A stretch of DNA of 64,000 nt, taken from NCBI GenBank assembly GCA_025526915.1, contig JAHLKH010000003.1, positions 124,001 through 188,000 of the forward strand, read 5' to 3'. Positions within the stretch are counted from its first letter, which is position 1. Each line of letters opens with the position of its first letter. Source of the stretch: Entophlyctis helioformis (lineage: Eukaryota > Chytridiomycota > Chytridiomycetes > Chytridiales > Chytriomycetaceae). Below, in pieces: positions 37,588 through 57,557 of this stretch. Both the position numbers and the translations under genes were made by a program. The notes beneath the pieces were generated by a model. That model did not search any database, had not been told where the DNA came from, and worked only from the letters and a program-made list of their open reading frames with translations.

Positions 37588-40045
37588 ATGCCTGGTGAAC
37601 TCAAGAAGAAGAGCAAGAAGGACGCCGCCCTGGACGCCGACATGGCCGATGCGGCAGTGAGCAGCGGCGCCGAGGACACACCCAAGAAGGCGTCCAAGAA
37701 GGACAAGAAGAGCAGCAAGAAGGACAAGGACGAGGAGTCGCCCAAGAAGGAGAAAAAGAGCAGCAAGAAGGACAAGTCGTCGTCCAGCGACAAGAAGGAC
37801 AGCAAGCGCAAGCGATCGGACGGCAGCGAGGACGGCGAGTCTGCCGGTGCTGTCATTGACGGCGCCGACGGTGTCGCCAAGCAGCGCCGCGTTGAGGCTG
37901 CCGGCGAAGCCAAGGAGCCCGAGGCGCTGGTGGTGGCCGACCGAGTCGTGGTCGAGGACCAGCATGTCGACGACTACAGAGCGTCCAACAAGAAGGAGGA
38001 GAACGAGATTCCCGAGCACCTCCGCATCACATCGCACGACCTGCTGCCGTCGACCGTCTCTGCGCTCGCAACACGCGGCATTGTGCAGCTGTTCCCTATC
38101 CAGGCCGCTGCGCTCGCACCCATCATGGCCGGCAAGGATCTGCTGGGCCGTGCCCGCACCGGTACCGGCAAGACGCTGGCCTTTTCGCTTCCCATGGTCG
38201 AGACGCTCAAGCGCGACCGTGCCGTGAACCGCCACTCGTACTCTGAGCGCGGCCGTGCTCCGCGCGTGCTCATCATGGCGCCAACCCGCGAGTTGGCCAT
38301 GCAGGTGCACCGCGAGTTTGACAGCATTTCCTCGGGAGAGCTCAAGGCAGCCTGCTTCTACGGCGGCAGCCCGTACGACTCGCAGAACGCTGCTCTCCGC
38401 GACGGTGTTGATGTCATTGTCGGCACGCCCGGCCGCCTGATTGACCACGTCGAGCGTGGCGGCCTCAAGCTGCACAACCTCCGCTTCATCTGCATGGACG
38501 AGGCCGATCAAATGGTGCGTTGCATGTGACTGTGTTTGCTGATCGCCACGCTGTGCGTGTGTTGTCCTGGCACCAAGCCAACGCTCCCTTTCTCCCTGCT
38601 GATTGCTGATCGCTCATCTGCTCTCTTGCCTCTTGCAGCTCGACATTGGCTTTGCCGAGTCCATGGACAAGATCCTTGCTCAGGTGCTTGAGCAAAAGTC
38701 CAAGCTTGGCGCTTCTGCTCCCAACCACCAGACGCTTCTGTTCAGTGCCACGCTTCCGGCCTGGATCAAGGATGCCGTCTCCAAGTACATGCGCACCGAC
38801 AAGGTCACGCTCGATCTCATTGGCAGCGACAAGCACAAGACGTCTGCGACGGTCAAGCACTTTGCCCTCGCGTCGCGCTGGCAGAACCGCGCCGACATTC
38901 TCGGCGACATTGTTGCTGTCTACGGCCGTGGCGGCGCTGGCCGTACGATTATTTTCGTCGAGACCAAGGGCGAGGCCAACGATCTCGCCATGAACGACAA
39001 GCTTGTTGCCATGGGCACGCAGGTTCTCCACGGCGACATCCCGCAGAAGCAGCGTGAAATCACCATGCAGGGCTTCCGCGACGGCAAGTTCACGTCGCTC
39101 ATCACGACCAACGTCTGCGCCCGCGGTGTCGACATTCCCGAGGTCGATCTCGTCATCAACTGCGAGCCGCCCTCGGACGTCGAGTCGTACATTCACCGCT
39201 CTGGTCGTACCGGCCGTGCTGGCCGCTCTGGCTTCTGTGTGACGTTCTACAAGGCCAACCAAGAATACCTCTTGCACAACATTGCCCGTCGCGCCGGTGT
39301 CGAGTTCAACAAGATTGGCGCGCCGCAGCCCAAGGACATTATCACGGCGCGCGCTCACGAGACACTCGAGACCGTCAAGACCGACCTTGACGAGCGCGTG
39401 CTCGACTACTTTACTGCCTGTGCTGGCGAGCTCCTTGCCCACTACGGCGGCGATGCTCTCAAGGCGCTCTCTGCGACGCTGGCTGTGCTCTGCAACACCA
39501 CAAAGCCGCTGCCTTCCCGCTCGCTCCTGTCTGCCAACGAGGGCTTTGTCACGCTCTACTTCCGTCTCGACAGACCCATCAACAACATTGGCTACGTGCG
39601 CTCGATCCTCCAGCGCGGCTTCCCTGGCATCACATACGAGGACACGATCGGCTGGCGCATGACCTCTGACGCCATGGGTGTGGTGGTGGATGTCAAGGCC
39701 GACAAGGTCGAGACCAAGGATGTCGACGGAGAAACGCAGTTGACCCTTGCCAGCGTGCCCTGGACTGACGGCCGCGGCATCTCGCTGACGGTGTGCACAG
39801 AGCTGCCAGAGCTCCAGGAGCTGCCCAGCTACGGCAACGACCAGCAGTCGCGTGGCGGCAGATTCGGCGGATCTGGCGGCCGTGGCGGTGGTTACGGCGG
39901 GTCCAGCGGTGGTCGCGGTGGTTACGGCGGCTCCAGTGGCGGTCGTGGTGGTGGCTACGGCGGTGGCAGCCGCGGCGGTCGTGGAGGCAGCTTCGGCGGC
40001 CGTGGTGGCGGCGGTGGCGGTGGTCGCAGCGGATTCCGTCGTTGA
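37588..40045 (+). CDS. DDX21: DEAD-box RNA helicase of the DDX21/DDX50 (Gu) type with GUCT domain
   Basis: Exons 37588-38514 and 38639-40045 give 777 residues, close to human DDX21. The Lys-rich N-terminus (KKSKKDKKSSKKDK) looks nucleolar. Helicase motifs: LFPIQAAALAPI (Q-motif region), ARTGTGKT (I), PTRELAM (Ia), TPGRLIDH (Ib), MDEADQM (II), LFSATLP (III), TNVCARGVDIP (V), HRSGRTGRAG (VI). A GUCT domain follows (FRLDRPINNIGYVRSIL...TSDAMGVVVDV), which separates this group from other DEAD-box proteins. The C-terminus is an RGG/GGY repeat tail. Expected role: rRNA transcription and processing in the nucleolus. Confidence 0.96.
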
Positions 40046-40484
40046 TGACGATCGCAGCCCTTTCCCCTTTTTTCTGCCATTCTCTCGTTTTTGACTCTCT
40101 CTTTTTATCAGCAATGCAACACAATACAGCTCCTTTCATTCACGCCATCCGTCTGCAGTCTGCCCCCCTGACCATCAGCTTGACAGCTGTTGGCAACCAA
40201 CCATGATCTGACGAGGGGTGGGCAATAGGGCGAGGGAATGCCGGCAAACCGCCGGCAAATGGCCCGACATTCAAACAATTGCCAAGCGTTTTGGAATTGG
40301 ATTCGACCCAAGAGGCAACGAATGCATGCCCGCGTATCACACAATGGAAGGTTCGAGTCAGCAACGAGCATGCGACGACAGGCGGGCGAGGCACACCAGC
40401 GAGATGCTCACCTTTCTCGTAAGAAAAAGTGACCCGTTAGGTCGATCGGGAGGTTCCCCGATTCAAAGTTGGTAGTCAAACAAG
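40046..40484. other. Intergenic region between DDX21-type and Fanzor-like genes (convergent)
   Basis: 439 bp with no coding frame of note. It holds the 3' ends of both genes and a small hairpin 23 nt past the Fanzor-like stop codon. A tRNA-like look near 40450-40470 does not fold as a tRNA. Confidence 0.6.
40445..40462. other. Hairpin (ATCGGG-6-CCCGAT) just downstream of the Fanzor-like stop codon
   Basis: A perfect 6-bp stem with a 6-nt loop. In TnpB and Fanzor loci the guide (omega) RNA overlaps or follows the 3' end of the ORF, so this could be part of one, an element end or simply a 3' UTR hairpin. There is no direct evidence for any of these. Confidence 0.35.
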
Positions 40485-43400
40485 TCACATGGAGTCACTT
40501 GCTGTGTCTGCAAGGTGCGCTTGCGTGGCTGGATCGTCACAGGCTGGCGTGTGCGTAAAGTAGAGTGGCCGCTCTCCATCGAGCAAATGCCCCAGTGCGA
40601 CCATTCCGATGTTAGTGGCACCAAGCACATCGCGGTGGTAGACAGTCTTGCATGGTATGCACTCGTAGCGTCGCAGGTTGGTGCGGTTCTCGTATGGGAT
40701 CCGCTGCTTGCACTGCGGGCACATCTGGCTGGTCAGGTTCTCGTTGCAGCGGTAGATCTGTGTGTGTGTGGTCAGTTGGTGCACAGATGGATGGATGGAT
40801 GGACAGCATGGCATCAGACGCACATAGGCATATCCAGACGACCGCAGATGCCTGATGAGAAACTTCTCAAACACAGCGTGCCGGCCACCTTGGCCTGTAA
40901 AGTCAATGCCAAATGCCCACACAACGGGAATGTTGTCCTCTGTCGACTTTGTTCGGTCGACAGGGAGGCCTTGAGATGCACGAGATGCGCGCTCTCCAGT
41001 CTTCGATCCTGCCAGATTCATGATGCCCTCAAGAGCGTTTCCGCGATCAGACATGCTGTTGCTGCGCTTGGTGAACCGCTTGGCCTTGACCTTCTGTGGA
41101 ATGCCATGCCATGCCATGCCGTCCAGTGCGATCAGCAGGCGATCAAGCAGCATGGCGGTCATGGCAATGGGCATCCAGAAACAGAGAAAACGCACCCGTG
41201 CATTCAGGAATGGCGTGCAGTACGCATGGCAGCGCAGATCCCAAAAGGCTCTCTCGCCTGCTGTGGCGTTTGGATCGGCATGCTTTGCTGTCTTGAATGC
41301 AATGGCCTCGTGGACGTCGGACGCCTTGGCATATCGATTGTTGAGCCTGGCACAGGAGGCAGGCACTGTGAGTTGATCTGGTCAAGAGTGCACGTGGCAG
41401 AGTCATTGCATGCATACCACCGCTGAAGGTCACGCTCAGCTCGTGCCATGCCAGAGGAGAGCACGTAGTTGGACTCCATCGTGTATGTCTCGTCCTCGAC
41501 ATTGACCAGCATGCTGGACGCGCCATACAGGTACCGCTCGCCCCAATCAAAGCTGACAACGCGAACAAAGTCCTTGTCGGCGAGCAGCTTGTTGGCATCA
41601 GCAACATTGGGCAGTCGCTGTGAGGCGTAAAAGTTGCACTTGACCTGCCATGCCATAGGATGAGTGAGGGATGTGCAGTGCATTTGCACCAATGCGCGAG
41701 GTAGCATGCAAGTGGCTTACAGGATTGGGTGCTTTTGGCTTGGTGGCTGATGGGTTGGCTGGATTGGCGGCTGTGGATGGCATGTCAGTCGGTGTGGTCA
41801 ACAAGTGCGCGTCTGGATTGGCACAGCAACTCACATGTGCCATTCAGGTAATCGGGCTCGATAAATTGACCATTCAAGGCATTAAGGATGCCAACAGCAG
41901 CATCCGCAAGACTGGGCTGCTGGGCTGGAGACGCCGCGTTGGGACCTGCAGAGCAAGGCAGTGGTCAGAATCAATGCGTGCACCACAGAATCCAAGCATG
42001 GCACATACTGCGAGGCGACTCTGGACGGTCTGCGCGGCAGTCCAGTGCCAGCTGATAGACCGTGTATCCATCCGTCATGATGCTGCCTTGTCTGATCACT
42101 TGCTTTGAAGCCACCAGAGGCTGAGAATCAACTGCGGCCTCGTCACCCTCGGCCTGCGTTGGACGGCGTCGATTCTTGGGGCAGAGGCCGGGCAGGAGGA
42201 TGTCAAGGATGGCCAGCTCCTTGCTATTGCTGAAAGCCCTTTGGATGACCTTGTCGTCAGTCCCAAGCTCCAACTTGGCATCTTTGTAGTCTTGGATAAA
42301 AGTGCAGTGTTAGCATCAAAGAGCATTGGCATTGGCATAGACACATGCAACTTACCAACTGCGGCCAGGAGCTCCTTTCGCAATGCTTGGAGGACAGGAT
42401 CGTGCTCATTGCCAATGCGATCGCTTTGCAGCCCCACCACCGCCCAAAAGAGCGTGGCCTCAGTGACGAGGATGAACGGGTCACGGCTTGCTGGCTGCGG
42501 GCATAGCTTCATCACTGAAGTGCCAGCGAGCTTGAGGAGTTGGTAGAACCGTCCAATGTCCGATGTTGACATGCTGCGCACAATTGCCTGAATTGGATTC
42601 AGCTCTTGTGGGATCTCGATGGCGTCCCCGTCCTGTGCGGCTGGTGGTGTGTCCTGCGTGGCATCTGTGGCGACAGGGGCAGTAGTCTCGTCCCTTTGCC
42701 TCTTGGATGTGCTGCCATCGGTGGCCAGCAGAAGCTGTGACGCGGTCCGCTTGAGAGTTGGGGCGGGAGGAGCGACATCCTGAGTGGCGTCCATGGCGTC
42801 GTCCATGGCGTCGTCCTCGATGGCCGGCAATGGGGCGTCTTGAGCAGTGTCCTGAGCGGCGTCCTGAACGGCGTCTTGAGCAGCGGCATGCCTGGCAACC
42901 TTGGTGGTCTCAACGGTCGCAAATATGGCATCGACCCACGCTGCAATCTGCTCAGAAGTCGCAGCAGGCATTGCTCTCTGGGCTGCGACCAATGCCAGCT
43001 TTGACCGGTTCTCGATGAAGTGCTTGGCGAGTGTGGCGCTCACCTCCCTCGCCAGGTTTTCGAAGATCTGCTTGGTCGCACGCGCGCACAGGGTGTTGAC
43101 AAGCCGATAGGGCACCACTGCCTGCTGTGTGTCGGCCTGCTGTGCATCAGCTGGGTGCAAGCTCGACCACCACATGTCTGGATGCCGCCCACGAGTCTGC
43201 TGCTTCTTGGCCGGTCGACGCGCGCCTGCCTTCATCTCGGCCATCCGCGCGGTGGTCCGCAGCGCGCCTGCCTGCTGCGCATTGCCAGTGTCCATGTCGG
43301 CCTTGATCGTGTCGGCTGGTGGTGCAGCTTGGTCGGTCATGCTGCCAGGTGTCCAGCTGCGATGGATCAGCAGCTGGACAACCGTGACAAGCCACGCATT

Positions 43401-46364
43401 GAGCGTGAGCATGATGGACATCGGCTTGACCATCTGCTCGCCCGTTAGGACAAACGAGAGGTGCCGCAGGATGCAGGCCGCGGATGTCTGGCCACCCGAC
43501 TCACTGGCGACAAGCATCGCAAGCAGCTCATTGGGCATTGGCACTGCTGGTGCTGCTGGTGCTGGTGGCTGGCCGTTGGGCAACTTGCGCGTCTCGACCT
43601 TCTCGAACATGACGCGCTCAAGTCTTGTTCCCTTGACCAGTCGCACGCGATGGCCGAAGCGAGGGTGCTTGCTGCTGCCATTATACTGACTCACGCCGTA
43701 CATGGTCTGTGCGGCAATGTCCTCGCGAAGCGTGAACTGACCGGACAAGAGCTCCGCTTTCGTGACAGTGCCGAGGCCCTTGATGACGTCCTTGTCGCTG
43801 AGGTCATCGAGGTCCTTGAGATCAGCATCCAGGAAACAATACTGAGTCGCCTTGCCATCGGGCCATTTGTAGACATGGTACGACGGTGGCAGAGGCGCAT
43901 CCTGGTCAAGCTCGAGAAGTTCCTCAACGACGGCACCGATGACGACAAGGCCGGCATGCCGCACGCCGACCGTGAACGATTGAATCCTCGTGACAATGTC
44001 CTCAATAAGTTGGCGGCGTGTCCAACTTGTTGATGACCTGATGGCATGAACGCCAAAGATCGGGGCGCTCTGCGGGCCGCCTGACAACATGTCCTGAGCA
44101 CCATGCAAGCCAACCTCTGAGTCAGTACATTCAAAGCCATGCATGCAGGCAGAATGGCAATCCTAAATCATACCTCCAGCAGCACTCTCATATGACGATG
44201 ATCAGATGCATCCTCTCCAGGTTGATCGGGTGCGTCTGCAGTGGCTTGATTGGTTGCGTCCGTGGCGGCTTGACTAGGCGTGTCGGCAGCAGGTTGACCG
44301 GGCGCGTGCACAGCAGCTTGTTGATTGTTGCCGCCAATGGCCGCTGGGAGCGTCATGGGTGCCCCTGACGTGAGGCGTCCCCCCTTTCTGTCAACCCGAC
44401 CTTGTGTCACTCGTGCTCCACCTTTGCGTCTGCAAAGCCCACACATGTCAGCAAGCATGCCCAAGGCACATGGCACAGTGTACAACACTCACGTCTGCTT
44501 CGGGTCCACTGGTTGGGTGTGGCGGTCTTGCCGGCGTGCACTCTCCTTGTTCCTGTCGATGGCCTTGTCTGCCGCGGCCTTGGCAGCTTGCTTTTCGCGC
44601 TTCTGCTTGTTCGCAGCCTCCTGTTGCTTGGTGATTTGGCGTCGCGCCTGTAGAGGTTGGATGCACCATCAGCAATGCATTCCAAGTGCACACAATGCAT
44701 ACGCAAGCACCAATGGAACACCAGAACTGACCGTCGTCCGGATGTCTGCATCTTGATTGAGATACAAGATCTTGCAGTCTGCTTGACCAGCCTGGCCGTC
44801 GGCGGATGGTGGTTCTTGCTCGGGCAGCTTGGGCAGTTGAGCCTCCTGTCAAGTGGAACAATGAGCAATCGTGCCAAGTCATTGCATGCACACACAGCCA
44901 GTGAAGATGGAGACGCACCATGGCTTGCTTGATGATCGACGTAGCAAGTCAATGACCTCTTTCAGCTGCTCGTGGCGTGTCACTGGTTGGCCATCCGTGA
45001 TGCTTCTCAGTTCGTTCAGCCTGTCCGCGGCCTTGACGCAGATGTCGGCAGCGGTCAATGGGGAACCGCCTCGGGTGATGGCCTTGCCTTGATGCTTGAC
45101 TTGCTGCGTGCCTTGCTGTGTGCCTTGCTGTGAGTCTTTCTGTGCATCTGTTTCTGGAATAGCACCGTTCAGCAAAGAAGGTGCTGTCAGTACATGATGT
45201 CAAGCCATTCCAATACAAGCAACGCATACTTGGCGTCGATAGGTGGCGGTGTGATTTGCACGGAGGATTGACAATCTTGCCCAACTGCTTCTTCATCCTC
45301 AAAGCAGCACCCTGTACAATGAGCAGTGGATTGGGTTAGACACTTCAAAGTGAGAATGCACATGCATCAGAGACATGCAGCAACTTACATGTCCATCCCA
45401 AATAGCCCGATCCTTTGGGCCAAGCTTTGCCCGCTCTTCCGCTTCACGAGCCTGCTTGCGGACAATCTCCAACAGTTGCACACTTGCCGACCTGCTGATC
45501 TTTGCGAGAATGTTGCGGCCTTTGACCCCGTTGGTGATGTGAGTGATGCGATCGGCCGCATGTCGGAGGACGCAGTCGAGTGCGGCGGGGCAGTCCTTGA
45601 CCTTGTCCAGCGTAAGACTGAGCTGCTGTTCCTTGACAATGTTCCTGACGAGTGGCCTGATGTCGTCCTGTGTGAGATGGATGATGTTGGGGTCTTGCTT
45701 GCCTTGCTGCGCCTTGGGATGGATCACAAGGCAGCCGTCGTGTAGCTGGCACCTGCATCGCGATCCAGTGGTTGCATCAAAGACAGAAGCACAGAGTCAG
45801 TCATGCAGGACACACCAAGAGATCACATGCATGCATACATACTTTGCTTGATGCGTGGTGGTCGCGTCAACAGCCACACTGTTGTCGTTGCCATGTGGTG
45901 AGAGATGGTCAGTTGAGTGCCATGCATGCAAACGGATCTATGCCACCATGCCATGACCAGTCATGCAAGGACTTGCCTCTTCTTTGGCACATTGCCAGAT
46001 TGACTGCCGTCGCTGGTTGGGAATGTGACCGTGTTGGCAAAAGTCCCTGACTCGTCATGGTAGACGAAAACGCCAAAGGCATTGAGGAAGCTCTTGGCAA
46101 GAGCCACACCACCATCCAGCGACAGCAGGTCAGCAACATACGCATTCTTGACGCGATTGGCAAATGCATCTGCCTCCTTAGGTGTAAGGAGTGGCACCGA
46201 CCATTGCCGCGCCTCCAACTTGGCCGCGGCCAATCACATGGGCCGCAATTCTGCGCCGCAGGATTGCAGTGTATAAAAGGCACATTTCGCCGCTTGGCAA
46301 GCCCGCTAGTGGTCTAGACACTTACAGCTTGCCAGGTACGCTGCTCTGCTCTGATGACGCTCAT
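40485..46364 (-). CDS. Very large Fanzor-like (TnpB/OMEGA family) RuvC nuclease gene
   Basis: About 16 exons, roughly 1,500 residues, ending SDSM-TGA at 40485. The C-terminal 350 residues carry all three RuvC motifs of TnpB/Fanzor: VVSFDWGERYLYGA (Asp codon 41546-41548), NENLTSQMCPQC (Glu codon 40740-40742) and YHRDVLGATNIG (Asp codon 40629-40631). They also have a CPQC...CIPC zinc finger between the last two and VVWAFGIDFTGQGG before RuvC-II. MTDGYTVYQLALDC upstream matches the TDG segment before RuvC-I. The N-terminal two thirds are unlike known Fanzors: a lysine/glutamine coiled coil (QEAANKQKREKQAAKAAADK), Gln/Ala/Asp-rich linkers and an unknown globular exon of about 590 codons (42350-44113). 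Exon phases agree at nearly all junctions I tested. The start is uncertain: an ATG at 46364 lies 18 nt after the upstream XPG-like stop and in its frame. Confidence 0.8.
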
Positions 46365-46396
46365 TCTAGAATGAAGAGACACTTACAGCTTGCCAG
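46316..46396. repeat. 20-bp direct repeat carrying a duplicated 5' splice site
   Basis: AGACACTTACAGCTTGCCAG occurs at 46316-46335 and 46377-46396, 61 bp apart. On the minus strand each copy contains CTGTAAGTGTCT, a good splice donor. In the upstream copy the same bases supply the in-frame TAA that ends the XPG-like frame. Confidence 0.9.
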
Positions 46397-47677
46397 TGCC
46401 AAGCGTCACATTAGGATCGTGAAGCAGCGCACAGAAGTCGGCCGGGTTGTCGAAGCCGCGCTCCTTGGCCGCAGCATCAAACTGGTCGTTGATGAACTTG
46501 ACGGCAGCAGCATTGCCTGCCAGGCAATGTGAATGGCAACACAAGTTAGTCAACATTGCAACATGGATGACAAACACAAGCACAGAGTCAAGCAATGGAC
46601 ATACCGCGACCATGGCAACTGTGATAGTCATTGTTTGCTATGGCAGCAAACAGCTGACATACACCAGGGAAAACACGCAGTCCAAGGGCAGCTGCAATGG
46701 TCGCAACGCCCTGGTGATTGAACGTGCGGATGTTGGTGGCATGCCCGCTGTGCATGTGTGTCATCAGGACACCGCAACGGCCAGCACAATGGAATACGAG
46801 ATCCGAATCGCCAGTGATGACCGCTAATGGCAGGACATTGCTGCAGGATGCAGGTTGTCAGCCATCAATCATAACAGACAGATGTCATGCCGATCTGTAC
46901 CTTGGCTGGCTTGCATACTCGGCAGCGTCGCGTGCGATACAAACATCGGCTTCGTGTTCGCACCAGCATACAGCATGGTACGACAGCGGGTCGAGAAACG
47001 CCTCAATCGCTTCCTTGATATTCTTCTTGTCGCCTTGCGTGAGAGTGAAGCAGCGCATCAGCACCTGCTCCTCTTTCCTGCAACAATGACTGTTAGTTAG
47101 AATCATCTTGATGCTGCACAAACAAGTGACCTTACTTTTCTAATGCCCCACATCGGCGACGGTCTTTGCGTTTGGCACACAACTGTTGAGCTGTTGCTGC
47201 TGCGCGCAAGACGTCCAAGGTGCGGCTGGCATGCGCCTGCTGCTTGATTCCAGTCTCGGCAAGCCTGCCATCAACATGGAAGACGACGATCCGGCCGTTG
47301 CCGACCGACTTGAGGAAGCTGTCGAGGACAGGTGCAAGAATTGCCAACCACCCACTGACAGATGATGGCAAGTGGGAGGCAGCCAGTTTACGGAGCGTTC
47401 CGTAGAAGATGCTCAAAGCATCAACATGGACAATTCCGGATACGAGCATGTGCGGTTGCAGCTGTGGTGGTGGTGGTTTCCTTTGAAGCAGGCGCAGCAT
47501 CAATGGTGGTGGCAGAAGATGGGGTCGAGTGGTCGCGCTGTTGTAAATGCTGCTGATGCTGTGTTGCGTGGTGTCTTCAAGCACCAGATCCAGTCCAGCA
47601 GACAGCGTCGTCCCGAAAGGTAGTGCCTTGCCACCCTGCCCCTTGATGACTTTTGGGATCACTCTTGGAATGCCCAT
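46383..47677 (-). CDS. XPG/FEN1-like (PIN-fold) structure-specific nuclease
   Basis: Four exons (47677-47136, 47077-46901, 46840-46605, 46516-46383) in matching phases give 362 residues, close to FEN1 in size. The start MGIPRVIPKV resembles the XPG MGIxGL N-terminus. Acidic active-site positions are in family order: VHVDAL (Asp about 86), VVFHVDGR (about 136), CEHEADVCIA (the XPG-I EAxA motif, about 221-225) and VITGDSDLVFH. A helix-hairpin-like segment ANNDYHSCHGRG follows, in the place of the family GxDY..GxxGxG. Residues 35-80 are a Pro/Leu-rich insertion. The family cuts branched or flap DNA. The frame ends in TAA (46385-46383), but it stays open in the same frame beyond, into the Fanzor-like gene, so the two may be one gene. 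Confidence 0.78.
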
Positions 47678-47735
47678 GCTGCGCGAGTGTCAGAGCGAGT
47701 GGCGGTGGCGTCGGCGGTGGCGGTGGTGTCAGTGT

Positions 47736-47751
47736 GCAAGCACGTGCTTGC
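47736..47751. promoter_or_regulatory. 16-bp perfect palindrome upstream of the XPG-like gene
   Basis: GCAAGCACGTGCTTGC, centred on CACGTG, lies 59 bp before the ATG. It is a good candidate for a dimeric factor binding site. It is followed by GGCGTTGGCGGG-type tandem repeats (47766-47812). Confidence 0.55.
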
Positions 47752-47849
47752 TGGACGAGTTGGTGGGTGAGGGGGCGTTGGCGGGCAAGGAGGCGTTGGC
47801 GGGTGAGGGGGCGGCGTGCGTTGAGAACTGGGCCAGCCAGACATGGACA

Positions 47850-47854
47850 GTGAG
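47850..47854. repeat. Target-site duplication GTGAG, left copy
   Basis: The five bases before the left LTR are repeated directly after the right LTR at 54563-54567, as expected for a Ty3-type integrase. Confidence 0.92.
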
Positions 47855-48111
47855 TGTAGTACTGGGCCGCCAGACGGACTTGCCGGCTGGTTGCAGGGGC
47901 AGTGAGTATGCACGCGAGGAAGGGCGGGCAGACGACTTCATTGAGACATAAGCACGGACCTGGTTGCAGGGGCAGTGAGTATGCACGCGAGGAAGGGCGG
48001 GCAGACGACTGCAAGAACGGGGGCAACCAGAGCGGGGGACGCGGCCGGGCGATGTCTGTCCGGTCACGTGGGTCACGTGGATCACGTGACCGCGACCGAG
48101 CATCCGTTACA
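47855..48111 (-). repeat. 3' LTR (257 bp)
   Basis: TG...CA ends. It contains a 50-bp internal direct repeat (47888-47937 and 47961-48010) and three CACGTG sites at 48065, 48074 and 48083, spaced exactly 9 bp. Confidence 0.95.
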
Positions 48112-48121
48112 CTCCCCCCAG
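48112..48121 (-). other. Polypurine tract of the retrotransposon
   Basis: Minus-strand CTGGGGGGAG directly before the 3' LTR, the expected plus-strand primer site in reverse transcription. Confidence 0.75.
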
Positions 48122-48164
48122 CGTAGACAGCCACTTATAAGAAAGAAGAGTGGATGAACAGCGA

Positions 48165-51100
48165 CTAAGAGGATGCAGGGGCATTGCGCACACGAGAGGC
48201 AGAAGTGCGGGCAACAATGGACGCGTAGGACACAGGACGGGGGGCCGTGCGCTCAGAGCGACGAGGTGGGGCGGGATGGTTGAGAGGGGGAAGAGAAGAA
48301 AGAGAGAAGGAAGGAGGAGAAGAGGGAGGAGGGAGAGGAGGGAAAGATGGAGAGAGAGAGGGAGATGCGGGTGCAGCAGGTGCGATCGGCTCGTCAGCCG
48401 GAGCAGGTGCCGCGGGCGTGGCCGCGTATGGAGCAGAGGCCACTGGTGCAGGAGCAGGCGCAGTGCGCTTGCGGCGAGAGGACTTGGATGCCTTGGGCTG
48501 CGTGGGAGCAGGCGCCGCGGCGGGAGCAGGAGCAGCCGGTGCAGGAGCAGCCGGTGCAGGAGCAGCCGGAGCAGGAGCCGCGCGCGTGGGCTGAGCCGGT
48601 TTGGACGCCTTGCCTTTAGGCGCCTTGGACGGCCGAGCGTGGAACGCCTTGACGAGGTCCTGGGCCTTGCGCATGTCGGCGGCTGGGACCCATGTGTTGT
48701 CGTCGGCTGGATAGCCAACCCACTTGACCAGATACTCGATCTTGCCGCGATAAGTGCGCGAGTCGACGATCTGCTCGACCTCGTAGTTGTCCGACGTGCC
48801 GTCGTCGGCGTGGTACTCGGGGTCAGGCCGTGAGGGCACGTCCTTGCGGCCGGTAGGCGCAGACAGAGGGTCAACGTATGGGCAGATCCGGTCGGCATGG
48901 AACACGTTGTGGACGCGGTGCAGCGAGGCAGGCAGCGCGAGCGTGTAGTTGAGGCCAGATTCACCAGAGTCCAGGCTGGTGATGGCAAAAGGGCCGAGCC
49001 ACTTGGCGGCCGTGAGCGGCGGGCGGTGCGAGTCCGCCGGCCAGGAGATGCCCTCAGCGTTGAGGAGCACCATGTCGCCGACCTTGTACGCAGGGTGACG
49101 GCGGCGACGCTTGTTTGCCTGAACAGCCATGGCTGCCTGGGCTTTGCGCCGATTCAAAATGGCTGAGTCGCGAGCAGCGGCCATGTCCAGCAGCAGGTCG
49201 CGGGCCGCGGCAGACGGTGCCAGGGCCGGCTCAGACGGGAAGGACCGCGGGTGGCGGCCAAACGCCAGGAAGAAAGGAGCAAAGCCAGACGAAGCCGACG
49301 GCGCGCAGTTGAGGCCAAAGCAGGTGGGACCGAGCAGCAACGGCCAGTCAGAGCCGTGGTAGTCGGCCGCCTTGGCGAGCGCATCCTTGATGGTGCGGAT
49401 GCTGCGTTCGGCCAGGCCGTCAGTCTGCTGGTGGCGAGCCGTGCTGAGGTTCTGCTTGATACGGGCAGCGGTGCAGAGGCTCGACCAGAAAGCCGACAGC
49501 CAGCGGGCGTCACGGTCCGAGACGATGTCGACCGGGAAGCCCTTGCCCGAGCAGACCCAGCGAGTCAGGAAGAGCTCGGCCAGCTCCTGGGCCGACGACG
49601 AGCGGCGGCACGGGAACGCGTCGCAGAGACCGGACAGGCGATCGACCACAACCAGAGCAGCATCAAACGCATCGTCTTGTCCGCCCGCAGGCAGGAACAT
49701 GACGTCCATGGCGACGCTCGAGAAGCAGTCGTCCGGGATCGCGAGTGGATGCAGCAGGCCGTCAGGCCGGTGATTGGGCGTGCGGTGGCGCTGGCACACG
49801 TCGCATGAGGCAACATAGGCAGCAATGTCCTCAGACATTCTGGGCCAGAAGTACCGGTTCGACAAGCGGCTGGTGGTCCGCTGACGTCCCTGGTGCGCAC
49901 CGAAGGGAGAGTCGTGGTAGTGGGCGAGCAGATCCGCGCGCAGAGACTGCGGCACATACAAGCGGTTGCCTTTGTACCACCACGCACCATCCAAGCACTC
50001 CATGTGCACTACGACCTTGCGGTCGGCCGGCGTGGCTGACGACGGGTCAGCCTTCCAGCCAGGCAGTCTGGAGGCGAATGGGTCGGCCGGCAACGCCGCA
50101 CGCACGTCTTTCGCCCAGTCAGAGTCAGTGCGCAGATTGGCAGCACGGATCGGGACAGGCGAGCGACAGTTTGTGCAGAGAGGGGCCTTTGAGGGATCGC
50201 GGGACAGCAGATCGGCCAGCGAGTTGAGCTCGCCAGGCACGTACTCAATGGATGTATCAAACTCCTGCAGAGACAGGACCCATCGAGCCTGCCGATCCGA
50301 CAGGTGGGGCTGCGTGGCCAACCAGACCAGCGCCTTGTGGTCAGTGTGCGTGACAGAGCGCACACTGGACAGCAGATGACGGAAACGCGAGAAGAACTCC
50401 ACGATGGCGAGCAACTCGCGTTCGTGGGTTGGATAGTTCATCTCGGCTGGGCTAAGCTTACGTGACCAGCAGGCCACCAGCTTCTCGCCATCTGGGTGGA
50501 TCTGCGACAGGTAGCCGGCAATGACGTAGTTGCTGGCATCAGTGTAGACATGCGTTTCCAGAGCCGGGTCAAAGAACCGCAGCTCGGTCGCTTTCAGCAC
50601 TGCCTGTCGCAGGTCTTCCACAGCCTGCTTTTGAGCAGGGCCCCACTCCCACTTGGCATTCTTGGCTAGCAGCTTGTAAAGTGGCAGACACATGGTGGCG
50701 TACGCCTTTGCAGGGTTCGGCCCACCAATGAATGACTTTAACCACACAAGCTTGCCAAGCCAAGTTGCCAGAGTGGTTGTGTTTGAGATGTGTGGCGCTG
50801 CTGCCATGTCCTGCAAGTGCTTTGGCGCAATGGAATAACCAGTGGGCGAAAGCACGTGACCGCAGAACTCAATGTCCTGCTGCAGGATCATGCACTTGGA
50901 CGGCTTAATGTACAATTGAGCCTCCAGTAGCAGCTTGAGAACAGTGCGTAGGTGTTTGATATGCTCCTTGTACGTCGCGCTGTAGATGTAGATGTCGTCC
51001 ATGTACACCGAGACGCACGTGCCCAGCAGCTCATTGAGCGTCGACTGGATGGCCTGTGTAAACACAGCCGGAGCATTGGTCAGCCCAAAAGGCATGACCG

Positions 51101-54100
51101 TGAACTCAAAGTGACCAAACTGGGTGGAGAACGCAGTTTTCCACTGGTCCTCCGCCTTAACACGGATGTTAAGGAAGCCCTCGCGGATGTCAAGCATCGA
51201 GCGGAAGGGTTTGTTTGCCAAGTTATCACGGAGGGTCTCAATCTCCGGGATCGCACTGTGGAACTTCACCGAGATGTTGTTCAAGCCGCGGTAGTCAATG
51301 ACCAACCGCAGCGAACCATCCTTCTTGCGGACAAAGAGCGTGCCGGCGCCCAAAGGCGATGACGAGCGGCGGATGTAACCTTTGGTGTACCACTCGTCTA
51401 GCTGCTTCTTGAGCGCTATGGATGCATCCTGATTCAGTCTCTTGAGGCCACGACGCGGCGGCAGCTGCGCATCCTTAATGAAAGGGATCGCAATCTCGAA
51501 CTCCGAGTCGTGCGCACGGCCTTGCGGCGGGCAGCAGACCTCGTAGTAGTCGATGAATGCCTTCTGCGTCTCCTCGTCCGGGCAGACTGGAAGGTAGGGG
51601 TACTTCTCCTTCAGCTCGTCCGGGGTGAGGCCGTTTGCAGCCGCGACGCGAAGGCGCGCATCGGCAGCTGCCTCACGGTCCTCAGGCAGGTCATCCACAT
51701 AAACCAGCTCCGCGTACTCGTCCGGATGGGCGAGGATGTCCGACATGGTAACCACGATGTCAGAGTGCGGCCGGTGGTGGGGGACAGCAGACGGCAGAGC
51801 GTCCGCATGCTGCCAGATGTGGTGCACATCGGGGCGCGACTCGGTCGAGAAGCGGAAAACACCGCGACGGAAGTTGAACGCCGCCTCCGCGGTGGTGCGC
51901 AGCCATGGCATGCCCAGGATGACATCATCCACACCATCGTAGACAAGGAACCGCACCTGGCTGACCGCAGCTGATCTGTCGGCCAGCGTGAGGTAGACCT
52001 CCGAATCTAGTCTCTGCAAGTTGCCGTTGGCAAACTCGAGAGTCACCGCCTGCCGGGTGAACGGCCGGGCAGCGGCGAGCAGGCCATTGGCATCCAACCA
52101 ATGGCGAGCCACTAGATTCGCGCTGCTGCCAGTGTCCACCAGGACGCTGGCGCTGCGATTGTCTAAGAAGACAGGGAAGGTGCACCGGTTCTCTGTGATG
52201 GGCTTCACAGGAGCCAGGTGCCCCTCCTTCAGTCGCGACGGCGGCAACACAGGACAAACAGGGTGATCAGGGGCCACAGAGGGCATCTTTTTATTCGCAA
52301 CACCGCCCAAAGGGTCACTCTTCTTCGTCTGCGTCGCTGTACTGGGTCCCGTCGTCTGAGAACGACGAGACGGTTTCGAGCGACCGCGAGCCGGAGCCAT
52401 TGCTGGTGCGCCGTCGTCACGGGCAGGGACCAATGGAGGTTCGGTGTCAGCATTGGGCTTACGCACGGCTGCAGGCTTAGCCGCCGAAGCGTGCTTGGCC
52501 GCAGGGGCAGGAGGAGCCAGAGGGGGCGAGCGAACATACCCGGGTGCCTTGGCCTTTGCCGCGATGCGCCCGACCTTAGAGTGGGGCGGGCGCTGGCTAG
52601 GCGATCGGCTGGCATGGTCGGCTGTCGCAGCGGGCGAGGCAGCCCTACGTGTCTCAGACGCGCTGTTGTTGCCAGAGGGCGCAGGGGTGGCAGCCTTGGG
52701 CGATGAGGAGCTCCAAGAACGCGGCGGCGTGGCAGCCGTCTTGCTCGGGCTGGGCTTCGACTTGGGCTCGAGGGCCTTGGCGGCGGCTGCCTCAGCAGTG
52801 GCCAGCGCGGTTGACTGCTTGTGGTTGGCCTTCCGCGTGTGCAGGGCCATGAGGTAATCCCGGATGGCCGCGTACGAGGAGAACGTTTCCGAGGGCGTCG
52901 CCTTGAGGCGGCCCAGGATGAAGTCGATCTTGAGCTGCTCCGAGTGGCCGGCAACCTTGAACAGCGCCTCCGCGCGGGGTACCCAGTCCTGGGGGGCCCA
53001 GCCGTGGCACGACAGCGGCGGGAAGTCAGAGGCAAGCTTGGCCTTGGCGCTGATCCGGGCCGAGTCCTGGTGCGTGTAAGTCGACCGGAGGTGCTCGAGG
53101 AACGTGTCGAATGTGAACGACGAGGCGTCGGCCTTGTTGTCGATGTACCAGGTGGTGACCTCCTGGAGCGCGGCTCCCTGGAAGGCATTCAGGAGCTGCC
53201 CAAAGATCCGCGGCATGGGAATCGAGGTGCATGACAGCGACTCGCAGGTGTTGCCATAAGCCATCTCGATGGCGAGGGCGAACGGCTTGAAAGCCGCGTG
53301 GGTGGCCGTCCAATCGACGTCCATCGAACCCTCAACCATCACAAAGCCCTGGAATGGCACAAGCTTGCTGCCCAGGTTGTCTGCAAACAGCTTGGCAGGG
53401 CTGCGGGCATCCACCGAGGATCCAGACGCGAGGGTCGGACGCGAGTCCACCGAGGACCCAAGCGCCTGGACCGAATGCGCAGTCTGCTGGGCGGCTGTGG
53501 CTGAGGCCTGCGCCAACGCGGCGTTTGCCGTTCTGGTGGCCTTGGCGACGGCATCTGAGAGGGCCTGCTCCAGTGCGATCACGGATTCCGACGTGTTGGC
53601 GACGCTCTTCTGCAAGCCCTGTATGGCCTCTGAGTTGGCCTCGACGGAGTCAAAGAGTGCCACCATGCGTTGGTGGTGGAGCTGGATGGCATTGGAGTAG
53701 GCCTCGGCCTGCCTGGCGGCCATGTCGCGGTCCGACTGCAGCTGAAGCCGCAGATCGTTGAGGGCTGCGTGGGCAGCGGCCGCAGATGATGTGGTCGCCT
53801 TGAGTGCGCGGCCGGTGTCCAATGTCACCGTGCCAAGGCGTGCCAGCTCCGCAATCATGTAGTCATCGACTGTGGTGCCAGGCTGCTCAGGGCGGCTTGC
53901 GGCGCCCGGCTGGGCGGCCGGCGTGCTGGAGAGGAACGCCTCTTGGTGCCGACCGGAACCCGCATCGTGGCGGCCCAACAGGTCGGCCGAGGATTGGCGG
54001 CGCGCCGCTGAGGCGCTAAAAGACACGCCCAGAGCAGAGTCGGCCATCAAGACAGACGACGTACCCGCAGGGTCGAGGCGGCGCTGGAACCTTAAGGGGG

Positions 54101-54218
54101 TGGCATCAATGAACGAGGGGGCCGTATCGAACGAGGCCTCGCCGAGGAGGTCCTGGTCGGTGCCCGAGGGGGCGGCGGCTGAGTGAGCCGAGGTCCTGGG
54201 CGAATGCTCGACGGCCAT
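48165..54218 (-). CDS. Gag-Pol polyprotein of a Ty3 chromovirus
   Basis: 2,017 residues from the ATG at 54218 (MAVEHSPRTS). The frame is open further upstream into the LTR, but that part looks non-coding. Gag: a coiled-coil region then a capsid-like domain (FTFDTFLEHLRSTYTH). No CCHC zinc knuckle is seen; a basic Ser/Lys/Pro-rich stretch replaces it. Protease VLVDTGSSANLV; reverse transcriptase YMDDIYIYS; RNase H VYTDASNYVIAG; integrase zinc finger HYHDSPFGAHQG...CDVCQRH and DDE residues in AMDVMFLP, VSDRDARW and GLAERSIRTIKD. A chromodomain (EYLVKWVGYPADDNTWVP) follows, then an Ala/Pro repeat tail. Gag and Pol are in one frame, without a shift or stop between them. Confidence 0.96.
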   Translation of the reverse strand: MAVEHSPRTSAHSAAAPSGTDQDLLGEASFDTAPSFIDATPLRFQRRLDPAGTSSVLMADSALGVSFSASAARRQSSADLLGRHDAGSGRHQEAFLSSTPAAQPGAASRPEQPGTTVDDYMIAELARLGTVTLDTGRALKATTSSAAAAHAALNDLRLQLQSDRDMAARQAEAYSNAIQLHHQRMVALFDSVEANSEAIQGLQKSVANTSESVIALEQALSDAVAKATRTANAALAQASATAAQQTAHSVQALGSSVDSRPTLASGSSVDARSPAKLFADNLGSKLVPFQGFVMVEGSMDVDWTATHAAFKPFALAIEMAYGNTCESLSCTSIPMPRIFGQLLNAFQGAALQEVTTWYIDNKADASSFTFDTFLEHLRSTYTHQDSARISAKAKLASDFPPLSCHGWAPQDWVPRAEALFKVAGHSEQLKIDFILGRLKATPSETFSSYAAIRDYLMALHTRKANHKQSTALATAEAAAAKALEPKSKPSPSKTAATPPRSWSSSSPKAATPAPSGNNSASETRRAASPAATADHASRSPSQRPPHSKVGRIAAKAKAPGYVRSPPLAPPAPAAKHASAAKPAAVRKPNADTEPPLVPARDDGAPAMAPARGRSKPSRRSQTTGPSTATQTKKSDPLGGVANKKMPSVAPDHPVCPVLPPSRLKEGHLAPVKPITENRCTFPVFLDNRSASVLVDTGSSANLVARHWLDANGLLAAARPFTRQAVTLEFANGNLQRLDSEVYLTLADRSAAVSQVRFLVYDGVDDVILGMPWLRTTAEAAFNFRRGVFRFSTESRPDVHHIWQHADALPSAVPHHRPHSDIVVTMSDILAHPDEYAELVYVDDLPEDREAAADARLRVAAANGLTPDELKEKYPYLPVCPDEETQKAFIDYYEVCCPPQGRAHDSEFEIAIPFIKDAQLPPRRGLKRLNQDASIALKKQLDEWYTKGYIRRSSSPLGAGTLFVRKKDGSLRLVIDYRGLNNISVKFHSAIPEIETLRDNLANKPFRSMLDIREGFLNIRVKAEDQWKTAFSTQFGHFEFTVMPFGLTNAPAVFTQAIQSTLNELLGTCVSVYMDDIYIYSATYKEHIKHLRTVLKLLLEAQLYIKPSKCMILQQDIEFCGHVLSPTGYSIAPKHLQDMAAAPHISNTTTLATWLGKLVWLKSFIGGPNPAKAYATMCLPLYKLLAKNAKWEWGPAQKQAVEDLRQAVLKATELRFFDPALETHVYTDASNYVIAGYLSQIHPDGEKLVACWSRKLSPAEMNYPTHERELLAIVEFFSRFRHLLSSVRSVTHTDHKALVWLATQPHLSDRQARWVLSLQEFDTSIEYVPGELNSLADLLSRDPSKAPLCTNCRSPVPIRAANLRTDSDWAKDVRAALPADPFASRLPGWKADPSSATPADRKVVVHMECLDGAWWYKGNRLYVPQSLRADLLAHYHDSPFGAHQGRQRTTSRLSNRYFWPRMSEDIAAYVASCDVCQRHRTPNHRPDGLLHPLAIPDDCFSSVAMDVMFLPAGGQDDAFDAALVVVDRLSGLCDAFPCRRSSSAQELAELFLTRWVCSGKGFPVDIVSDRDARWLSAFWSSLCTAARIKQNLSTARHQQTDGLAERSIRTIKDALAKAADYHGSDWPLLLGPTCFGLNCAPSASSGFAPFFLAFGRHPRSFPSEPALAPSAAARDLLLDMAAARDSAILNRRKAQAAMAVQANKRRRRHPAYKVGDMVLLNAEGISWPADSHRPPLTAAKWLGPFAITSLDSGESGLNYTLALPASLHRVHNVFHADRICPYVDPLSAPTGRKDVPSRPDPEYHADDGTSDNYEVEQIVDSRTYRGKIEYLVKWVGYPADDNTWVPAADMRKAQDLVKAFHARPSKAPKGKASKPAQPTRAAPAPAAPAPAAPAPAAPAPAAAPAPTQPKASKSSRRKRTAPAPAPVASAPYAATPAAPAPADEPIAPAAPASPSLSPSFPPLPPPSSPPSFSLSSLPPLNHPAPPRRSERTAPRPVSYASIVARTSASRVRNAPASS

Positions 54219-54305
54219 CCGAAAGAAAATACGGAGAAACGACGGAAAAATCGATCGACGGCGGCGGGGAACGGCGGCCAACGGCGTCGAAAGGGGGGTT
54301 CTTGC

Positions 54306-54562
54306 TGTAGTACTGGGCCGCCAGACGGACTTGCCGGCTGGTTGCAGGGGCAGTGAGTATGCACGCGAGGAAGGGCGGGCAGACGACTTCATTGAGACAT
54401 AAGCACGGACCTGGTTGCAGGGGCAGTGAGTATGCACGCGAGGAAGGGCGGGCAGACGACTGCAAGAACGGGGGCAACCAGAGCGGGGGACGCGGCCGGG
54501 CGATGTCTGTCCGGTCACGTGGGTCACGTGGATCACGTGACCGCGACCGAGCATCCGTTACA
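54306..54562 (-). repeat. 5' LTR (257 bp)
   Basis: I read this as base-for-base the same as 47855-48111. The three CACGTG sites are at 54516, 54525 and 54534. It should hold the element's promoter. Confidence 0.95.
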
Positions 54563-54567
54563 GTGAG
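54563..54567. repeat. Target-site duplication GTGAG, right copy
   Basis: Matches 47850-47854. Confidence 0.92.
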
Positions 54568-55230
54568 GCGGCAAGAGCGAGAGAGGACAGAGCAAAGGCA
54601 GCAAGTGTGAGCGTCAGTGCCAGTCAGAGTACGCAGTTGGGTCTGTAGATGGATGGACAGGAGCACACCAACCTGCCGTCTGCGGGCCGAGCGACTGCGT
54701 GTGGCTGCGAGAGCAAGAGGGGGTTGGACAGCATCGTGGGCTGGACGGGATGGGGCGGTCGGTTGGTCGGTGGGCAGGAGGTGGAGCAAGGCACGGTCGA
54801 GAGTCAGCTCGCCACTGCTCCAACAGTGCGGCAGCTGCCGTGGTTGGCAGTCGACTGGCTCCACTGGGCAATGAGCGGCATGTACGCACCACTGCAAGAC
54901 TTGCAAGACTTGACGGATGCCGCCTCGCAGTGAAGGGGCGTGCCGCAGTGGCTGTTGGGGATGGTTGTGTGTCGACTTGGTAAGCCCGAGTGGTTGATGG
55001 TGCGGCAGGCTTGTGAAGGCTTGCGAGGCACTGGTCATGTGGCAGCCCATGTGCACGGCACTCTTGTGCCCATCGGAACCATCCGCCTGTCAGCTGCCGC
55101 TGTGTTGTCACCCGTGTTGTGCTCGCTATTGATGGCGCGCATTTGGGCAAGTGCCGCGACCAGATCTGGGCTCAACCAATCACAGCGATCCCACCACCAG
55201 TGGCAGTGGCGCTCTGGCGACAGAGTTAGA
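54568..55230. other. Non-coding region upstream of the 55231 gene, interrupted by the retrotransposon
   Basis: 663 bp. Before the insertion it was joined to 47678-47849, making an intergenic region of roughly 0.8 kb between the divergent XPG-like and 55231 genes. Minus-strand open frames here (for example 54614-55150) have no protein-like features. Confidence 0.6.
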
Positions 55231-56949
55231 ATGGACGAGCAACAGCCACCACATGCCGCCGTGCACCAGCAGGACGACATGGACGCAGCCACCACCACAG
55301 AGCCAGCTCCCAGTCAAGCAGACCCGCAGGCCATCGACCCAACAGGAAAGGTTCTGGACAACAGCTTGTGCTTCCACTGCAACAATGGTTCATTCGAAAG
55401 CATGACACTGGTGGACAAGAAGAACCAAATATACTCGCTGCTGCCACTCGTCAAGCTCACAGATGGCCCGCGTAAAGGCGTCATATGCGTCCAAGTGTCT
55501 CGCCTCCCCTTGGTTCTGACAAGCTTTGTGCCAAGACGACTTGACAACAACGTCCCTGCTCTTGCCATCAAGATGGAACTTGGCGGCCGTGAAGTATTGG
55601 TGGTGCTTCTCAAAGACATCGACAAGCTTCTCGTCATGCTCCCATGCCTCGAAGATCCCAGCAATCCTGACATTGTGATGCATGGCATTGCATCCGATCC
55701 CTCGTTCAAGAGCAGCGTCCTCCAACTCCTTGAGCACTATGCAGAGTACCGCGATCATCACAAAGTAAGTCTGATCACCCACAACGCACACTAAGCAGTG
55801 TAATCACTCACTGACTTCCAAACCTCACACGGCAGTTTGCCGAGACGAGCGTCTTTGCAGCAGCCAACAACCAGAATCTGGGCATGCTTGCGACACTTGA
55901 TCCAAAGCAGAGTTTGCAGTCCCAGAAGGGGCGACCTTTACGCACCTGTATGGTCGCGCGCTTACGTCCTATCCCGTGGAGCAAGTAAGCTTACAAACGG
56001 GCAGGCGACACACTATCCTTGACGATCAGCACTAACCATTGCATTGGACACAGCTGTTTAACGCATGGCGAGACAGTTTACGACGGACTGGAAAGGGCCG
56101 GAATGACAAGTCAGACCTGGAAGAGTTCATGTCAGTCGCACGACAGATGCAACTCATCTTCAAGATCAGGTCGATGGATGTTGATCAGCGCGGATTCCTT
56201 GTTGAGCCATCCTCCAAATGCCGGTAGGATACTCTCATAGGATGTGTATCCACTGATCGCACAGCAGACTGACTGCACGAACAGCACATACACATCCTAC
56301 GACAGATCATACAACATCTTTGTGTGGGGATCCATCAGCGATGCCATCCAGAAAGAGTGTGCTGTCTACACCAATGCAGCCAGGACAGAGGTTGGCATGA
56401 GTGAGCAGGATTGCTGCAGGCATTCTGTGTGTATCGCCTCGACAGTTCTCAAAGTCAGGCCAATCCAAGCGCGATGCCTTACAGCAGCTCGATGATACGC
56501 AGCAGCTCAACGATACGCCGAGTGATCCATCCATGACCTCGTTGGTGAGCTCGTCTGCCTCTTGTGCGATGGCTGTCAACAGTTGCGACTCTGTTGACAC
56601 TGTGTGCCTTGACAATCTCGACGACGACAAGGACCTTACGGATGAGCCTGGAGAGCCAGCCGTTGCTGTGGCTGCCACGCCAACAGCCAGCCGCCAAAGA
56701 ACACCAAGCAAGCGGAAGAGAGCAGCAGCTGCTGCCAGTGCGTCTGTGTCGCCTGTGACATCGCCCGTTTGGACATTGCAGCAGGTAGCCCCAGCAGCAC
56801 ACACAAGTGCGCCGACTGGACGCAGAAGGCCAACAGCTGCAACAGGCAGTCGCAGGAAAGTTCTTCGTGACACTACCAACACGCAACCAACTGCTGCCCC
56901 TTGGACAGGCTCAGCAGTCCACAGGCCAGTCAAAGCGACCACGACTTGA
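55231..56949 (+). CDS. Unknown multi-exon protein in the accessory island
   Basis: Start at 55231 (MDEQQPPHAAVHQQ). Exon 1 encodes an alpha/beta-looking region (FHCNNGSFESM, KGVICVQVSRLPLVL, REVLVVLLKDIDKLLVMLP). Later exons encode LFNAWRDSLRRTGKG, EEFMSVARQMQLIFKIRSMD and YDRSYNIFVWGSISDA, and end in a Ser/Thr/Ala-rich tail with a basic SRQRTPSKRKR, possibly a nuclear signal. The second exon's acceptor is ambiguous. Starting it as FAETSVFAAANN keeps a frame that conflicts with the following LTSYPVEQ, while a later acceptor (FAVPEGATFTHLYG) is in phase. It is divergent from the XPG/Fanzor-like genes. No family recognised; a role with them is only a guess from position. Confidence 0.6.
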
Positions 56950-57557
56950 GAAGGCATCGACTGCAGACCGCTCAGAGTGACTGGGAATTCGGACAAGAAT
57001 ATGAAATTGGATTCAAAAAGATTGGAAATTGGATGCCAAATTGAACAAAATTCGAGGCAAACCAGCCGGCCAATCAGGTGCCGGCACAGGGTGCTCTATG
57101 GGAACGAAATCAATTACCCCCCCCCCCCCCCCTCGTGATCTGACGCGCCTGCAGAGTCGCGTCCAACTTAATTCGCCTCGGAGACTTTCCATTTGATTGG
57201 CTGCGGCTCGCCCACATCACGTGATCCAGAATCGTCTGTTTTGGTGGCAGCCAGCACCAGTTTTTCTTCCTCACACTCGTTTCAACAGGTCGGTGCTGCT
57301 GTGCAGTTGCTGGTGGCCGTTCCAAAGCGGGGACGGCTGTGTATGCCGACGGGTGGAGCAGACGGCGTGTGCCTGGCAGCCTGCTGGCAGTCTCTTGGCG
57401 GCCTTTAGAGCTAGAGAGAGAGGCAGCCTGCGCACACTCTCTGTCCCTCGGCCGTCCACCGTCCAGCCTGCCTCTGCCGTCACAACTGCTGCTGTGCGAG
57501 CGAGCGAGCCCAACTGACTTTTTTTCTGCTGGGTGTCGCAGTTCAACTTTTGCCAAG
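56950..57557. promoter_or_regulatory. Upstream region of RPS13 with C16 run and ATCACGTGAT palindrome
   Basis: Holds a 16-bp homopolymer of C (57117-57132), inverted CCAAT (ATTGG, 57196-57200) and a 10-bp palindrome with CACGTG (57216-57225) about 330 bp before the ATG. A pyrimidine-rich stretch (TTTTTTTC) near 57520 suits a ribosomal-protein transcription start, and a 5' UTR intron is possible (CAG at 57539-57541). Confidence 0.5.

Follow-up and report, generated by a model that had tools for sequence, protein, structure and literature searches.

An XPG-like 5′ nuclease joined to a TnpB/Fanzor-type RuvC nuclease in the predicted protein of a multicopy transposon of the chytrid Entophlyctis helioformis

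The 64-kb window analyzed here (bases 124001–188000 of contig 3 in the 29.6-Mb Entophlyctis helioformis assembly; positions below are those of the window) contains a DNA transposon. One gene of it, on the minus strand, is predicted to encode an XPG-like nuclease, a long middle part and a RuvC nuclease with a zinc ribbon (TNB) of the TnpB/Fanzor type, in this order from the N-terminus (Table 1). A first-pass annotation of this DNA had delimited a unit at 40485–47677; the gene does occupy this interval, but the element around it is larger and carries a nested Ty3/gypsy element. About 150 copies or fragments of the transposon, in several old subfamilies, are present in the genome.

The copy in the window is damaged, because a 229-bp insertion (46411–46183) breaks its frame and one further frameshift lies near 44940. 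The first-pass annotation saw here a TAA after which the same frame continued. The in-frame joint stands and is better seen in sister copies; the TAA, however, is an accident of this copy. It sits within the inserted repeat and is therefore no gene boundary; as a separator of two genes it was ruled out. The insertion is absent from 20 aligned loci (L009–L028; junctions across the site are shown for six of these), and exon 4 is unbroken in L009, L010, L011, L013, L015 and L023. The repeat has 13 matches in the genome, 12 of which (the window's included) are 95–100% identical over nearly the full length; flanked here by CCTA, it looks like a short mobile element.

The gene structure was taken from 24 fetched loci (20 from among the 25 XPG matches ranking next to the window's own, with five left out, plus four loci with a known TNB partner), to each of which a protein model was aligned by a purpose-written spliced aligner. 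In L011 (contig C38:75250-85150) the layout comprises 19 exons and 18 introns, and the frame is open over all 1875 residues, from XPG to zinc ribbon, with no stop or frameshift. L019 (on C1) and L016 (on C50) have no disruption outside query residues 810–850 (q810–850), a stretch where the query does not fit other subfamilies; the first exon is uncertain in both. For 14 of the 18 introns, the model position agrees across at least 20 of the 24 copies, among which the group L023–L032 is distant (43–54% protein identity to the query). Behind the four XPG-like exons we count about 15 further ones, where the first-pass annotation had about 16; the RuvC/TNB end that it described is confirmed (PF07282). 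The two halves would be joined in one protein by splicing of a GC–AG intron.

An earlier gene model of ours, in which the stretch after FLNAR was coding, was ruled out, as stops and shifts cluster there. The NCBI models P0001, P0002 and P0004 skip this stretch, which runs from GT to CCACAG in 21, and to CAACAG in one, of the 22 copies reaching it.

Table 1. Features of the transposon copy in the window and of its insertions
Feature	Position	Strand	Basis or remark
XPG-like/RuvC fusion gene	40488..47677	-	spliced alignment and sister copies; damaged by one insertion and one frameshift
XPG-like exons 1-3	47677-47136, 47077-46901, 46840-46605	-	NCBI model P0009 (sister copy) crosses the same three joints
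Exon 4, in which the XPG-like domain ends and the middle part begins	45977..46516	-	split here by the 229-bp insertion
GC-AG intron with GCAAGT donor, on which the fusion hinges	45879..45976	-	spliced alignment
Large middle exon, ~586 aa	42356..44114	-	matched to no family
RuvC and TNB zinc-ribbon exons	41644-41418, 41346-41196, 41093-40824, 40757-40488	-	PF07282, motif residues
Hairpin-rich conserved 3′ region, candidate guide-RNA scaffold	40211..40467	-	reaches the right end of the element
Whole transposon copy, two later insertions included	40212..57135		sequence shared with other copies breaks off close to either end; ends CGAGGGG.../...CCCCTCG
Target-site duplication, one copy (TGATCTGA on +)	57136..57143		
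Target-site duplication, other copy (TGATCTGA on +)	40204..40211		
Gene A, outward-pointing second gene of the element	55231..56946	+	exon structure uncertain
Inserted 229-bp repeat with TAA	46183..46411		CCTA on either side
Nested Ty3/gypsy element	47855..54562	-	identical 257-bp long terminal repeats; GTGAG on either side; not part of the fusion system

In the N-terminal half, seven acidic residues in XPG order and a lysine/arginine pair are invariant in five divergent members, and each of these positions is kept in 22–24 of the 24 copies; the four-exon XPG-like frame with acidic motifs seen in the first-pass annotation is borne out, at the head of the minus-strand gene (47677 to 40488). An Asp stands at what we take, by FEN1 numbering, to be the position of the second Glu of FEN1. 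Profile searches gave matches to PF12813 (XPG_I_2) of 16.2 and 13.7 bits, below the cut-off of 24.2; in a search with five members this family weakly matched three of them (best E 0.002). PF00867 (XPG_I) had four matches in the genome, none at the XPG-like exon of the fusion family.

The predicted XPG-like fold, a low-confidence model, matched 5′-nucleases, EXO1 and FEN1 best; the large middle exon, also poorly modeled (mean predicted local distance difference test score, pLDDT, 41.6), had no fold match at E 0.001 or better, so that a poor model alone does not match 5′ nucleases. The ratio of nonsynonymous to synonymous divergence (dN/dS) of the XPG part was 0.17–0.40 in eight of nine pairs, the ninth being saturated; this is the strongest constraint among the parts compared. 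The order and invariance of the motif residues, with the fold matches of the low-confidence model, support an assignment of the N-terminal half to the FEN1/EXO1/XPG-type 5′ nucleases, with a predicted flap or 5′ exonuclease activity.

The C-terminal half matched PF07282 (TNB) above the cut-off of 26.3 bits, both in the window's own last frame (E 1.6e-9, 38.2 bits) and in the sister copy L019 (E 1.4e-10, 41.6 bits). The NCBIfam model guided_TnpB (NF040570) matched five of five members (best E 5.5e-7); in the member shown, the match is to the zinc-ribbon end and far below the whole-protein cut-off. The TnpB/Fanzor motif D-X(125,275)-[TS]-[TS]-X-X-[C4]-X(5,50)-RD, as given in the available text of PMC3627910, is present with D at q1602, TS at q1794–1795, C4 at 1798/1801/1818/1821 and RD at 1827–1828. 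The Fanzor fingerprint in the available text of PMC10711439 consists of DPG at RuvC-I and of a shifted RuvC-II glutamate, six residues and CxxC. The shifted glutamate is there (E1791 and C1798, each in 22 of the 22 copies reaching them), and the other RuvC and zinc-finger residues are likewise kept in 22 of 22, except for the RuvC-I D (22 of 23) and one T (21 of 22).

The RuvC-I motif is DWG, not DPG, in the five members aligned; for this reason, the half that the first-pass annotation had named Fanzor-like is filed here as a TnpB/Fanzor relative rather than a proven Fanzor, although its zinc finger and shifted glutamate are as described. A TnpB/Fanzor-type RuvC nuclease with zinc ribbon is thus supported, and RNA-guided cleavage is predicted. 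This half may derive from a TnpB of the DPhiG/E-alt clade, captured separately from the known Fanzors.

Roughly 1150 residues lie between the two halves, in agreement with the N-terminal extension of about 1100 residues claimed before. Searches of solved structures by sequence gave no match in one case and ribosomal proteins at E 0.2–0.4 in another; resemblance of the zinc ribbon to guided nucleases appeared at E 0.45–0.68, along with one unrelated chain.

The pair of XPG and RuvC parts recurs in the genome. The third XPG-like exon gave 150 scored matches of 156 candidates (a few being two pieces of one copy), and a query from another subfamily led to a mostly overlapping set of loci (150 scored of 158 candidates); for the TNB zinc ribbon, 150 matches were scored of 205 candidates. 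A same-strand TNB match was found 4–16 kb downstream of 74 of the 150 scored XPG matches, and 61 same-strand pairs were spaced 5.0–6.6 kb. Opposite-strand pairs within 4–16 kb numbered only two. Simple arithmetic leads to an expectation of about five by chance. The pairing is therefore real, recurrent and beyond chance. Sister copies with only 43–54% protein identity to the query still keep both parts adjacent; this is the opposite of the pattern (parts never adjacent in homologues) that the first-pass annotation had said would speak against it.

The family was missed by automatic annotation: the 13 public gene models that we found cover only pieces and are all named ‘hypothetical’. Two profile searches led to 13 proteins, every one from E. 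helioformis. The whole fusion had no match at E 0.01 or better among the 7983 candidates (long proteins) scored from 5.8 billion clustered proteins, and in viral contigs none of the 45 and 36 pattern matches to the two halves was confirmed. The literature searched, outside which most subscription papers lay, contained no Fanzor paired with XPG and no combination of XPG, a transposable element and a chytrid; two papers in it name TnpB together with flap endonuclease. Within this literature, we have not found an earlier description of a transposon that bears a TnpB/Fanzor nuclease and has a second nuclease built in; relatives of the fusion may exist outside this genome.

Candidates for the right end (209) and the zinc ribbon (205) outnumber those for the left end (86); many copies may thus be 5′-truncated, or a shorter RuvC-only element exists. 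At C89:55242-57600 a zinc ribbon is enclosed by left and right ends that are separated by only ~2.4 kb, with no target duplication seen, possibly an internally deleted derivative.

A hairpin-rich region of ~260 nt occupies the space between the stop codon and the element's right end. We compared 31 right ends (one of them cut off by the contig stretch; three loci were unmatched and three on the other strand were left out); in 23 of them, conservation extends from the stop codon as far as the boundary, past which the sequences are unrelated. The consensus fold of these (22 of the 23 aligned, one duplicate being dropped) has an energy of -46 kcal/mol and closes with a long hairpin immediately ahead of the boundary. 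The shape of one hairpin is retained across differing sequence versions, with z of -2.4 or lower against single-base shuffles in seven of 12 (one of the other five was wrongly extracted). Rfam returned no match in one search and, in the other, one match far below the gathering score; a bacterial-code scan found no tRNAs. According to the available text of PMC10711439, the guide RNA of Fanzor1 sits at this right-end position and includes the target duplication. By its place and predicted fold, the region is a candidate guide-RNA scaffold.

In L002, L029, L031 and L032, the terminal stretch that follows ATCGGGCC is unlike that of other right ends; these four have been truncated or else represent another type of right end.

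We suggest that the RNA-guided RuvC half and the 5′ nuclease, encoded by one gene of the transposon, act together in copying the element back into its site, a proposal that we rank first and whose chances we consider even. The 3′ end of the transcript, from stop codon to right end, would supply a structured RNA; this would load into the RuvC half with flanking host sequence as the guide; the RuvC half would then cut the empty site where the element has been excised or is lacking; the 5′ nuclease joined to it would trim or resect the broken ends, and repair would copy the element back in from a homologous copy. Splicing at the GC–AG intron, the existence and binding of the RNA, guided cutting, resection and copy-back, like the two-step role of the nucleases, are what we infer from the anatomy described. 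The boldest form of the proposal, a single-chain RNA-guided machine in which RuvC is aimed at the empty site and the FEN1/EXO1-like half resects the cut ends and thereby compels copying repair, so that the element homes back once excised, seems to us doubtful.

Between the same subfamilies, synonymous divergence (dS) was 1.1 to over 2 for the XPG part and 0.09–0.29 for the RuvC part, and the left end in the other 39 scored matches is 93–96% identical to that of the window; in this patchwork, parts have been exchanged between element lineages. Such a pattern fits copies repairing from one another after breaks; ordinary recombination would fit equally.

Several observations, besides those on the joint intron considered below, weigh against the proposal. 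Just three of the 24 copies look undamaged; the remaining 21 have 1–12 disruptions each outside q810–850. Among the scored matches, 76 of 150 for XPG are without a downstream TNB and 78 for TNB without such an XPG partner. The true number of pairs is likely higher, because 55 TNB candidates were unscored; in four of the five fetched loci counted as unlinked (L012, L013, L020, L022, L024) the RuvC/TNB part is in fact present, L022 being the exception. The dN/dS of the RuvC part is higher, 0.38–0.83, so either constraint on this half is weaker or recent decay dominates. Seven of the 31 right ends (L002, L016, L018, L023, L029, L031, L032) depart from the others before the boundary, and covariation in the right end is slight, a two-sided change being present in two of 59 pairs and the covariation term being near zero.

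The element might, instead, be a non-autonomous transposon with terminal inverted repeats (TIR) that a hAT- or MuDR-like enzyme mobilizes in trans, and its protein a passenger whose two nuclease domains serve host or element for separate purposes, with no guide RNA; we rate this as rather unlikely. The ends of the element would agree with it. Homology between copies spans ~57135 to 40212, ~10 kb without the insertions, and stops at short G-rich inverted ends (CGAGGGG/CCCCTCG), which TCAGATCA flanks on either side in the window copy. In six of 13 copies the two ends share 8–10 bp, as against none of 156 mismatched end pairs; a full target duplication was not seen in the other seven (the count omits two further copies, of which one has an altered left end and the other abuts the end of a contig). 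Target duplications of 8–9 bp have the length expected of hAT or MuDR elements. GAGGGGTGGGCAA resembles what we take to be hAT ends, so that these may be of hAT origin. Pfam scans saw no transposase family in the pieces scanned, and Dimer_Tnp_hAT had no match in the genome, although its control was also unmatched and no MuDR search was made. Cargo of this sort has precedents, as the available text of PMC3627910 describes Fanzor1 genes as captured by several transposon superfamilies, including MuDr-type ones with 9-bp duplications. Against a passenger stand the structured right end at the position of known guide RNAs and the RuvC and zinc-finger residues, so consistently kept.

For the fusion itself, the critical point is the joint intron. 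Unlikely, though somewhat supported by the data, is an arrangement with two proteins that are partners in one element, a separate XPG-like nuclease, made by intron retention or through a genuine stop, and a RuvC protein translated from another start. If the intron were retained, each of the 24 copies would end its XPG part shortly past the donor, as RQVxA-stop (21 copies), RQVYS-stop (L032) or RQ-stop (L029 and L031), and the NCBI model P0009 terminates exactly at the stop behind the unspliced GC–AG donor; two products are thus possible, and fused and separate ones may both be made. Furthermore, L029 and L031 are without the GC donor. Against two proteins, the donor GCAAGT is present in all 21 copies having an intron at this model position. 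A GC donor here is also plausible, since at another intron of the gene GC (8 copies) and GT (16 copies) alternate among the 24. An in-frame ATG is lacking upstream of exon 5 in 21 of 21 copies (exon 5 of L012 being uncertain) and upstream of exon 6 in 20 of 21, which leaves the second half with no start of its own there; and exon 6 is constrained, with dN/dS of 0.26–0.68 across nine pairs.

It is quite improbable that the XPG-like domain (or gene A) is itself the mobility enzyme, a new kind of transposase with the RuvC part as its helper. The failure to recognize a known transposase in the pieces scanned would agree with such a role, as would the constraint on the XPG-like domain, the strongest among the parts compared; however, we know of no 5′ nucleases that join DNA ends, and fixed-length target duplications point to a DDE-type enzyme. 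Equally improbable is a pairing devoid of functional meaning, produced by amplification of one composite sequence: all copies are in one genome, with no relative elsewhere among the scored candidates, but copies at 43–54% identity retain the two active sites and, to a large extent, the arrangement of introns; drift alone would not have preserved these.

Gene A closes with a basic, serine-rich C-terminal exon, which all seven left ends read contain; the first exon of this gene matched no Pfam family and was not found in L053–L055. The Ty3/gypsy element has one open frame of 2130 aa and long terminal repeats of 257 bp that are 100% identical, and is therefore a very recent insertion into the older transposon. 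Host-like frames, named from reading their translations, flank the transposon: a DEAD-box RNA helicase-like one at 38603–40045 (+) and one like ribosomal protein uS15/RPS13 at ~57558–57980 (+).

Fanzors are compact nucleases whose biological role is open, according to the available text of PMC10432273. A 5′ nuclease built into the predicted protein of a Fanzor relative hints at cutting coupled with end processing, as copy-back homing would need. If this is true, the protein would be a naturally occurring union of a guided cutter and a resection-type nuclease, usable for steering repair. With about 150 copies or fragments, which belong to several old subfamilies in a single chytrid, the family is testable.

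A second nuclease tied to a guided one is familiar from Cas4 and other end-processing nucleases; these have a different fold, are encoded by separate genes and are prokaryotic. The chytrid protein shares with the FEN1/EXO1/XPG family the order of acidic residues and the lysine/arginine pair, but its XPG-like half belongs to a transposon protein and matches PF12813 only weakly. With TnpB (IS200/IS605, IS607; DPhiG/E-alt clade) it has in common the DPhiG-type RuvC-I motif and the TNB zinc ribbon; in contrast to TnpB, the gene is eukaryotic, rich in introns, joined to a 5′ nuclease and carried by a TIR transposon with 8–9-bp duplications. Fanzor1 (e.g. SpuFz1, GtFz1) also has the RuvC D, an E six residues before the first CxxC, a C4 finger and RD, and is likewise borne by DNA transposons with target duplications and a conserved RNA-like region from stop codon to right end. 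Fanzors of ~400–700 residues (PMC10432273, available text) and Fanzor1 genes with 5 and 10 exons (PMC3627910, available text) are known, whereas the predicted chytrid protein has 1875 residues, an XPG-like N-terminus, a long middle part, 18 introns in its gene and DWG at RuvC-I.

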